Part shown: piece after piece, positions 8,333-11,384 of the stretch | How the letters are laid out: the number at the start of each line of letters is the position of its first letter | Position numbering within the stretch: position 1 is the stretch's first letter | Source of the DNA: Oceanobacillus oncorhynchi | Lineage (GTDB): Bacteria > Bacillota > Bacilli > Bacillales > Amphibacillaceae | NCBI RefSeq assembly: GCF_000821065.1 | Contig: NZ_CDGG01000001.1 | Span: forward strand, 3,844,001 to 3,908,000 | Direction: 5' to 3' | DNA: 64,000 nucleotides | Notes under the pieces: model-generated | Told to the model about the DNA's origin: nothing | The model's input: only the letters and a program-made list of their open reading frames with translations | Database searches by the model: none | Position numbers and translations under genes: made by a program

Positions 8333-9610
8333 TTATGCACTTTCCTTTGGTAACTTCTCATTTCCTTCTTGAACGGTACCGTCCTGGAAAACAAGTTTTG
8401 GACTTCCATCTTCCTGGATAACAGTGTCCTTTGTAATGATGCATTTTTCTACGTCTTCTCTAGAAGGAAGGTCGAACATAACATCTACAATGATTCCTTC
8501 TATGATAGAACGAAGTCCGCGTGCACCAGTCTTCCGTTCAATAGCTTTCTTAGCAATTTCGATAAGCGCATCCTGTTCAAATTCAAGCTCGACATTATCA
8601 ATTTCAAACAGCTTTTGATACTGTTTAACAAGTGCATTCTTTGGTTTAGTCAAAATTTCAATCAGGGCATCTTCATCCAGCGGAGTAAGACTGCCAATTA
8701 CCGGAATACGTCCAATAAATTCTGGGATTAAACCATAGCGTAATAAATCTTCCGGAAGAACTTTAGACAGCAATTGTGCTGTATCCAATTCTTCCTGCTC
8801 TTCATTTGCACCAAAACCAATTACTTTTTTACCTATACGACGCTTGATTACTTGATCAATACCGTCAAATGCACCGCCGACAATAAATAAAATATTGGTT
8901 GTATCGATTTGGATAAATTCTTGATGCGGATGCTTCCTTCCACCTTGAGGAGGTACGCTTGCTACTGTTCCTTCTAAGATTTTTAGAAGCGCCTGCTGTA
9001 CGCCTTCTCCGGAAACATCTCTTGTAATCGATGGATTTTCAGATTTTCTTGCTACTTTGTCAATCTCATCAATATAAATGATTCCTTTTTCTGCTTTTTC
9101 TACATCATAATCAGCAGCTTGGATCAGTTTGAGAAGAATATTTTCTACATCCTCTCCTACATATCCTGCTTCTGTTAATGATGTTGCATCAGCCATTGCA
9201 AATGGTACATTAATAATTCTTGCTAATGTTTGAGCTAAGAGTGTTTTACCGCTTCCTGTAGGCCCAATCATGGCAATATTACTTTTAGAGATTTCTACAT
9301 CCCCATTATGCATGCCGGAATTAACACGTTTGTAATGGTTATATACTGCTACAGAAAGATTTCTTTTGGCTTTATCTTGACCAATTACGTAATCATCAAG
9401 TGTATCACAGATTTCTTTTGGCTTTGGAATCTCATTCATTTCCATGCCTTCCTCGGTGCCAAGCTCTTCCTCAACGATTTCTGTGCATAATTCAATACAT
9501 TCATCACATATATAAACACCGGGACCAGCTACCAGCTTTCGTACTTGTTCTTGGCCTTTGCCACAAAAAGAACATTTTAATTGTCCTTTTTCTTCATTAA
9601 ATTTAAACAT
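8333..9610 (-). CDS. clpX: ATP-dependent Clp protease ATP-binding subunit ClpX
   Basis: AAA+ unfoldase that feeds substrates to ClpP. 425 residues. N-terminal C4 zinc domain (CSFC at about 14-17, CDEC about 35-38), Walker [13 protein letters not shown] near 118, Walker [10 protein letters not shown] near 180, RKH pore motif in [10 protein letters not shown] near 225, ClpP-docking loop [10 protein letters not shown] near 265, sensor-2 GARGLRS near 365. Its ATG overlaps the stop of the small upstream zinc-finger gene by one base (TAATG), so the two are translationally coupled. Confidence 0.98.
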
Positions 9611-9768
9611 TACTTTTCGCCGCCTTCCTCAACAATCTCTGAGACTTTCCTAACACATTCGTTACATATATAAACGCCAGGGCCAGCTACTAATTTCTGA
9701 ACTTCTTTTTCGTTCTTCCCACAAAAAGAGCAATTTGATTGTCCCATCCCGGCTTCTAAATTCAACAT
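9610..9768 (-). CDS. Stand-alone ClpX-type C4 zinc-binding domain protein (52 aa)
   Basis: A 52-codon gene immediately upstream of clpX, sharing one base (TAATG). It begins [10 protein letters not shown] and carries CSFCGK at 13-18 and CNEC at 35-38 (all four zinc cysteines), with [11 protein letters not shown] in between identical to the ClpX N-terminal domain, and ends [10 protein letters not shown] with no AAA+ domain. ATG 9768 has AGGAG at 9-base spacing; an ATG at 9774 is too close to it. The ClpX zinc domain is known to dimerise and to bind substrates and adaptors. A free copy could compete for adaptors, form mixed dimers with ClpX, or act as an adaptor; this is inference. It looks like a tandem duplication of the 5' end of clpX. 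Confidence 0.88.
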
Positions 9769-9902
9769 ATTCATTCACTCCTACATGTGCCGTATCGGAT
9801 TAGCAGTCAGCTTTATAATTCATCATATCAGATACAAATAGAAATACAAAACAATATACTTTTTATATTTTCTAAAGATAATCCTATGATAAGTGTGTCT
9901 AT

Positions 9903-10097: not shown

Positions 10098-11384
10098 TTA
10101 TTTTGTTTTGCTGTTTTCAGCTAAGAATTCAATTGCAGCACGCATTTTTAAATCATTTTCTAATGTTTCTGTGGAACCGCCAAGCATTTGTAGAAGCTGT
10201 TCTTTCTCAACTCCGTACATAGAGCCCATTTTTTCAAGCTCTGCATCGATATCCTCTTCTGTAGCTTCAAGATTTTCAGCTTCAGCAATTGCTTCTAACG
10301 TCAAGTTAGTTTTTACACGCTTTTCAGCATCTTCACGCATTTGTTCTTTCAAAGCATTCTCATCTTGTCCTGAGAATTGGCTGTACATTTCTAATGTCAT
10401 GCCTTGCATTTGAAGCTGTTGTTCAAATTCGCGAACCATCTGATTTACTTCTGTGTCTACCATTGCTTCTGGAATCTCTACCTCGATATTATCTGAAGCT
10501 TGTTGAAGTAATTCTTCACGCTGTTCATTTTCAGCTTGTTGTTTTTTGTTTGTTTCCAGTTCTTCACGTTTTTTTGCTTTCAATTCATCAAGTGTTTCTA
10601 CTTCTTCATCAACATCTTTTGCAAATTCATCATCCAGTTCTGGTAATTCTTTTGCTTTTACTTCATGAATTTTCACTTTAAAGACTGCGTCCTGACCAGC
10701 TAAATCTTCCGCATGGTACTCTTCAGGGAAAGTGATTTCTACTTCTGTTTCATCACCAGCTTTTTTACCAATCAATTGTTCTTCAAAGCCAGGGATAAAT
10801 TGTCCGGAACCAATTTCCAGTGAATGATTTTCACCTTGTCCGCCTTCAAAAGCAACGCCATCTTTGAATCCTTCAAAATCGATAACAGCAGTATCGCCGT
10901 CTTCGATTTCGCTATCTTCTTTTACAACTAATTCTGCTTGGCGTTCACGAAGATTTTCGATTTCCTGTTCTACATCTTCATCAGTTACTTCTACAGATTT
11001 TTCTTCCACTTCTAAACCTTTATATTCACCAAGTTTCACCTCTGGTTTCACTTCTACTTCCGCAGTGAAAACAAGCGGTTGTCCTTTTTCAATCTGATCA
11101 ATGTCGATAGAAGGCTGTGCAATTGGGAAAATCTCAGCTTCATCAACTGCTTTAGAATAAGCACTAGGAAGTACAATATCTACTGCGTCCTGATATAGAG
11201 ATTCTACGCCAAAGCGTTTTTCAAAAATACTGCGTGGAATTTTCCCTTTACGGAAACCAGGAATCTGAACATCCTTCGATACCTTTTTGAACGCTTGGTC
11301 TAACGCTTGATCAAAGTCTTCAACAGATACTTCAAACGTTAATACTCCTTTATTACCTTCTTGTTTTTCCCATTTTGTTGTCAT
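10098..11384 (-). CDS. tig: Trigger factor (ribosome-bound chaperone and prolyl isomerase)
   Basis: Binds near the ribosomal exit tunnel through L23 and holds nascent chains. 428 residues from ATG 11384 ([11 protein letters not shown]), with GGAGGGAA upstream; the longer reading adds [10 protein letters not shown] over the ribosome site. Ribosome-binding signature GFRKGKIPR near residue 45, FKBP-type domain about 150-245 ([13 protein letters not shown]), then the long acidic helical substrate cradle. It lies upstream of clpX as in B. subtilis. Confidence 0.97.

Follow-up and report, generated by a model that had tools for sequence, protein, structure and literature searches.

A free-standing ClpX zinc-domain reading frame directly upstream of clpX in Oceanobacillus, probably held by selection after a partial tandem duplication and later lost in relatives

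The window analysed here, a stretch of 64,000 nucleotides of an Oceanobacillus genome (G000), carries on its minus strand a small open reading frame directly upstream of clpX. The features of this locus are as follows.

8333..9610, minus strand: clpX, encoding 425 aa, intact and with its own zinc domain (TIGR00382, E 4.2e-207).
9610..9768, minus strand: free-standing ClpX zinc-domain ORF of 52 aa, with ATG at 9768 and TAA at 9612-9610; PF06689 with four cysteines and no other Pfam domain.
9620..9630, minus strand: clpX ribosome-binding region, inside the last codons of the small ORF and at the duplication junction.
9611..9782, minus strand: duplicated unit (ribosome site, start and zinc domain), delimited by alignment and period, with approximate ends.
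9778..9782, minus strand: AGGAG ribosome-binding site of the small ORF, read by eye.
9822..9830, minus strand: extended -10 (TGATATGAT) of the putative promoter preceding the small ORF and clpX, recognised by eye in the genus genomes.
10098..11384, minus strand: upstream gene, an ORF from sequence, which we take by recognition of its sequence to be tig (trigger factor).

A first-pass annotation had described a 52-codon gene with all four zinc cysteines of the ClpX N-domain and without an AAA+ module, which overlaps the clpX start by one base and has a ribosome site of its own. All of this was borne out on the minus strand. The stop codon (9612-9610) and the clpX ATG (9610-9608) share one base, forming TAATG. 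Two in-frame ATG codons follow the AGGAG (9782-9778, by eye), one at 9774 only 3 nt past it and one at 9768 at a distance of 9 nt; because of this spacing, the 52-aa product was preferred over the 54-aa ORF of the mechanical list. The sole Pfam match is PF06689 (zf-C4_ClpX) with an E value of 1.1e-18 and 67.3 bits, which passes the curated cut-off of 27, and the zinc site CxxC-x18-CxxC of this family is present as C13, C16, C35 and C38. Against TIGR00382, the model for full-length ClpX, the ORF reached 41.2 bits compared to the required 370.75 and covered only profile positions 8-46 of 414, with no AAA+ module. Four NCBIfam models matched below their cut-offs. The best two are ClpX models, both aligning only inside their first 46 positions, and the further weak matches are to ribosomal protein S14 and MbdU. 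Only the ORF and clpX itself matched at E<=1 in their own genome, and the identity of the ORF to the ClpX zinc domain of this genome is 64% over residues 7-48. An AlphaFold2 model of the product (monomer; alignment of 11 rows) had a mean pLDDT of 79.7, with residues 1-5 under 50, and its eight best PDB matches were a ClpX-ClpP model and ClpX zinc-domain structures, including 2ds5_A with a TM score of 0.86 (by target length). The ORF is a recognisable paralogue of the neighbouring clpX, far beyond chance, and its product, as modelled, most likely adopts the fold of the ClpX zinc domain and would be made in step with ClpX.

The placement of the small gene under the operon promoter held in part. 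The ORF lies between the clpX promoter and clpX, and the extended -10 is nearly invariant across a clade of seven species, in a surrounding 61-nt block with 0-6 differences in 14 measured pairs. However, a consensus promoter scan did not report the -10 at 9822..9830 and found only chance-level sites, so that the label of operon promoter rests on conservation. The AGGAG of the small ORF is not retained in the six aligned relatives (alignment by eye). A 26-nt tail including the clpX ribosome site shows 0-1 difference in 14 measured pairs, although the ORF is broken in five of the seven genomes. In this clade, the clpX ribosome site (9620-9630) lies at the junction and replaces the AGGGGTGA-like site of the other leaders of the genus, as read by eye. 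RNA folding of the 221-nt transcript (9820 to 9600) yielded a z of +1.2, with 180 of 200 shuffles folding at least as well, which leaves leader RNA structure unsupported as an object of selection.

A second match directly upstream of clpX, either a copy or a relic, is present in 7 of 28 genus genomes: that of the window, G002, G008 (labelled O. sojae SK-2), G009 (O. sp. CFH 90083), G015 (O. jeddahense S5), G019 (O. neutriphilus) and G043 (O. sojae NBRC 105379). In the other 21 genomes, which have no second match there, clpX comes straight after the promoter, as read by eye. The five named Oceanobacillus genomes among these (G008, G009, G015, G019 and G043) were matched by a DNA pattern derived from the ribosome site of clpX. 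In a tree of concatenated ysxC, lon, clpX and tig from 16 of the 28 genomes, the seven copy-bearing genomes split from the 9 others with a support of 100, while two inner nodes have supports of 46 and 58. The seven-way alignment reads promoter, copy and then a junction bearing the present clpX ribosome site, and in the window 158 nt separate the first cysteine of the copy from that of clpX. The simplest reading is a tandem duplication reaching from the clpX ribosome site to about codon 48. The alignment identifies the ORF as the product of an old tandem duplication that took in only the 5' end of clpX, and the sequences place this event in the common ancestor of a single Oceanobacillus clade, the new ribosome site of clpX lying at the junction.

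Two other accounts of the copy were tried. Recent gene conversion from clpX as the cause of its intactness was rejected, given a dS of 1.37 over 38 codons between the window copy and clpX. Furthermore, a tblastn search with the ORF product matched 49 phage-labelled and 156 plasmid records, of which the best 20 and the best 15, respectively, were compared and three examined further. The best row is an unannotated Staphylococcus phage record that is 72% identical over residues 13-48; across this stretch, clpX of the window agrees at 25/36 positions. Identity is indecisive here, and a phage or plasmid origin was set aside on position, junction and shared DNA, from which, rather than from identity ranking, the origin from the adjoining clpX follows.

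Wide conservation of the gene was not supported among these relatives. Besides the full-length copy of the window (1/7), there is one shortened copy with four cysteines (1/7) and five of the seven are broken. In the shortened copy of O. jeddahense (G015), three bases have been lost in frame, and the four cysteines lie in a 41-codon ORF from ATG (43 codons from GTG) that ends after Cys4. In G002, a frameshift deletes the fourth cysteine, a convincing start is missing and the shifted frame runs 8 nt beyond the clpX start. Several frameshifts affect the copy of G009, in which Cys1 is lost; a frame of 39 codons there lacks three of the four cysteines and ends where the window ORF ends, at the clpX start. 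G043, G019 and G008 have a common stop in the core register and further damage. The start regions are eroded in the copies of the relatives, and of the seven copies only that of the window was seen by eye to have a good ribosome site where the ancestral start lay. These three separate sets of lesions imply probably at least three losses in addition to the shortening in G015, and the copy was probably dispensable.

A short frame in this position might also be a leader cistron, through which translation loads ribosomes on clpX by translational coupling, the peptide being incidental. The TAATG overlap and the clpX ribosome site within the last codons of the ORF fit such a role. However, all seven species retain the clpX site, whereas a full frame that begins at a good start and reaches the clpX start exists in the window only. 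Moreover, coupling leaves the conserved zinc residues unexplained, and folding of the 9820-9600 transcript is no better than that of shuffled sequences. We consider a leader cistron improbable.

Selection on the copies was assessed with a codon model over 26 codons, in which the zinc domains of ten clpX genes were set beside the three copies that are readable, those of G000, G015 and G002; G009, G043, G019 and G008 were left out as unreadable. Omega was 0.146 on the copy branches compared to 0.003 for clpX. Fixing the omega of the copies at 1 cost 14.9 in the likelihood ratio test (p=1.1e-4), and a single omega for all branches cost 20.7. Single terminal branches, over 34 codons, gave an omega of 0.08 for G015 (p=0.02), 0.21 for G002 (p=0.06) and 0.31 for the window copy by itself (p=0.26 against 1), these tests being weak because the gene is short. 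A per-branch fit for the window copy since the duplication was discarded, as it split one branch into two unidentifiable parts with omega 12 and 0.0003.

Parsimony assigns to the zinc core (codons 13-38) 5/9/21 changes at first, second and third codon positions over G000, G015, G002 and G009 compared to 7/5/2 in the trio with the common stop, counts that rest on one inner tree order with poor support (46 and 58); Fisher's test of the two distributions gave p=0.005 and a chi-square test of 5/9/21 gave p=0.003, with changes treated as independent. Jukes-Cantor (JC) distances, with gap columns left out, were 0.17-0.32 for the zinc core in the 11 measured between-lineage pairs, at a gene dS of 0.78-1.22, and 0.50-1.14 for the stretch before Cys1 in between-lineage pairs. 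Within the trio, the core (0.08-0.23) was about as diverged as the stretch before it (0.13-0.21), at a gene dS of 0.28-0.36. In a neutral simulation, in which the present ORF stands in for the ancestor and indel rates are assumed, the start, the open frame and the four cysteines were kept together in 5.0%-0.8% of runs at 0.5 neutral changes per codon, in 1.3%-0.07% at 0.75 and in 0.09% to none at 1.4. Of these settings, the branch lengths of 0.75 and 1.4 fit the G000 estimates best, with a retention of <=1.3%. The codon evidence supports that the copy was translated and held by protein-level selection for much of the history of the clade. The gene appears to have been constrained as a lineage; on the window's own branch, omega is by itself not distinguishable from 1. 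The earlier proposal of selection rather than decay stands for the pooled copies and not for the window branch taken alone. Absence in close relatives together with neutral rates, which had been named as the sign against it, was found by half: the copy is mostly lost in the relatives, and the rates are not neutral.

Much of this pattern could also be left by a decaying duplicate of passing use at most, a remnant that is still open by chance in the window while only the promoter and the clpX ribosome site matter. Five of the six other copies are broken, the sixth is shortened and start regions are eroded, whereas the flanking promoter and clpX ribosome site are near-invariant regardless of the state of the copy; the terminal branch of the window copy is compatible with neutrality, and clpX is far more constrained. 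Decay does not, however, account for the omega of the pooled readable copies, and the neutral retention of start, frame and cysteines was 0-5% over the settings tried. Moreover, the window copy alone of seven keeps a good ribosome site at the ancestral start (by eye). We regard plain decay as a possible but rather doubtful explanation, and prefer a copy that was for long selected as a protein.

Free zinc-domain ORFs upstream of clpX were also found in other Bacilli. An order-level sample of 397 genomes, which included four of this genus, contained 15 (that of the window among them) with at least two matches at E<=0.001. The other 14 and G034 were re-searched individually; in this sample and in the class sample below, re-searching was by at least two matches within the E limit, and weaker copies may have escaped it. 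In four of the 15 re-searched genomes (G062 and G261 of genus g42, G222 and G248 of genus g55), the second match lies directly upstream of clpX, and in the remaining 11 it lies elsewhere, mostly in longer proteins. A class sample of 299 genomes, which overlaps the order sample, contained 12 genomes with at least two matches at E<=1e-5; ten new ones were re-searched (the other two being that of the window and G062), and one of them, G576, has an ORF directly upstream of clpX.

In genus g42, the upstream ORF occurs in 4/4 species. It lies between the end of a gene that is presumably tig and clpX in the three species with the full interval, which in the fourth (G421) is interrupted by a contig end. 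A terminator-like hairpin separates the ORF from clpX at both loci scanned (G261 and G422), and a promoter scan of the g42 loci (L074 and L092; G261 and G422 scanned) reported none, though one was read by eye; only the hairpin is claimed here. Differences by codon position between G422 and the three others were 8/6/26, 9/6/23 and 9/5/25, and those of the near pairs 1/0/6, 2/1/6 and 1/1/1. In genus g55, three of five genomes carry the ORF, with differences of 7/2/26, 3/5/25 and 4/5/17, and G424 has no second match. In G576, the only genome of its genus here, the ORF follows a clpP-like ORF, and a repeated stretch of the ORF end precedes clpX. The ORFs of g42 and g55 end 81-223 nt before clpX and that of G576 121 nt before it, distances that speak further against a leader cistron. 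The periods of the Cys1-to-Cys1 type in the four cases are 158, 348-361, 243-275 and 289 nt. This differing spacing and the scattered genera suggest that the four cases arose separately, and the diverged pairs of the other genera are rich in third-position differences (e.g. 8/6/26 and 7/2/26), which we count in favour of recurrence.

The only clpX match of a further g55 genome, G076 (L096), opens with the N-terminal half of the copy's zinc core and switches to clpX near TGTGATGAATGT, representing a natural copy-clpX fusion. This suggests that a copy's zinc core is able to function as part of ClpX. It would also be expected if the copy were chiefly a sequence reservoir, from which recombination exchanges the zinc core of clpX. 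However, this is a single event, collapse of a tandem repeat gives the same product without a selected role, and the ClpX zinc domains of seven Oceanobacillus species are nearly identical. We therefore consider a reservoir function very improbable. Our tentative proposal for the Bacilli as a whole, which we hold to be possible, is that partial tandem duplication of clpX repeatedly yields a free zinc-domain protein in separate lineages, selected as a trans-acting regulator of adaptor and substrate access to ClpXP and gained and lost with need.

Related proteins were observed at other loci. One group (L080, L081, L082, L083, L084, L085, L086, L112, L113, L114 and L116) comprises proteins that are about 97-183 aa long and carry a ClpX-type zinc finger at the C terminus, most of them with a DFRKKTFRGAKIED-like start; the N-terminal part of the one member scanned had no Pfam match. 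Free ClpX zinc-domain proteins are also encoded far from clpX, namely L078 (G381) with 64 aa and L075 (G316) with 118 aa and an extra cysteine/histidine-rich part. L109 (G425) and L117 (G442) are second full-length clpX-like genes, diverged and located elsewhere in the genome. The PHROG families 6797, 12435 and 5259 match the window protein, and phages may carry free ClpX zinc domains. In phage P88, a ClpX-type zinc finger protein (L119, 809-1141) is annotated as a carboxylate-amine ligase.

According to passages of PMC9035409, the zinc domain of ClpX is able to fold in isolation and forms dimers. The hydrophobic region of this domain with Phe16/Ile46 is described, in passages of PMC7804408, as being used by SspB, RssB, trigger factor and lambda O, a substrate. 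By alignment, these pocket residues are retained in the window protein as F15/I45. The G015 ORF ends before the Ile46 equivalent and the g42 proteins have Gln or Glu at that place, so that not every free copy can use the pocket alike. The genome of the window contains a strong match to PF13743, which we take to be the YjbH family, and two weaker ones. Excerpts of PMC5506225 describe Spx of B. subtilis as controlled by YjbH together with the N-domain of ClpX, and this zinc-containing domain as oxidation-sensitive.

A free zinc domain would occupy adaptors, trigger factor or substrates that dock on the ClpX zinc domain; alternatively, it would pair with ClpX zinc domains to form mixed dimers. 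Either route would soften adaptor-dependent ClpXP proteolysis. Both the adaptor-access and the mixed-dimer idea are compatible with the literature on the domain. We favour a role in which the protein, produced with ClpX, titrates the ClpX zinc domain or joins it in mixed dimers. The ORF most likely encodes a real, dispensable small protein that would compete for or pair with this domain and thereby tune adaptor access. Taken jointly, duplication, past protein-level selection, dispensability, later losses and a role as zinc-domain competitor or partner form an explanation to which we give an even chance.

ClpX zinc domains help decide the access of adaptors and substrates to the ClpXP protease. 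If the proposed role is true, a naturally selected free copy would represent a protease regulated by separate production of its docking domain. Recurrence in other Bacilli and the one copy-clpX fusion would provide a matched natural set of intact, shortened, broken and fused forms for domain function in trans. The locus would be a clear example of a candidate small regulator derived from part of the gene that it acts on, and its decay can be seen in sister species.

Compared to the N-terminal zinc-binding domain of ClpX (PF06689; 1OVX, 2DS5-2DS8), the ORF product is alike in sequence, four cysteines, predicted fold and Phe16/Ile46 pocket residues, but it is encoded by a separate gene, is without the AAA+ module and is under much weaker constraint; compared to ClpX of the same genome, its helix after Cys4 is changed. 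Stand-alone "ClpX C4-type zinc finger" proteins (WP_327166968.1 of Streptomyces, AIZ95127.1 of phage P88 and the PHROG families) likewise have a ClpX-type zinc domain outside ClpX, with annotations that give no tested function. WP_327166968.1 and AIZ95127.1 are longer (123 and 110 aa by coordinates) and have no clpX annotated within a few kb, whereas the ORF is a tandem duplicate under the clpX promoter. Among the matches listed for the open-access literature (PMC, with subscription papers outside its scope), the text returned did not describe any gene for a free ClpX zinc domain located before clpX. Stand-alone ClpX zinc-domain proteins as such are known; a selected, recurrent one directly before clpX was not found in the portions of this literature that were searched. 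AcnSP of Synechocystis is, as reported in PMC7336809, likewise a small protein that arose by partial gene duplication, from the N-terminal part of an enzyme's gene, and it modulates the parent enzyme. As described there, it is plasmid-borne, concerns an unrelated enzyme and is experimentally supported, whereas the ORF is known from sequence alone. The zinc-domain adaptors SspB, RssB and CpdR (in passages of PMC7804408) and YjbH (in those of PMC5506225) share the proposed point of action. These adaptors bind the zinc domain, whereas the ORF product is a copy of this docking domain and would therefore compete or pair rather than deliver substrate.
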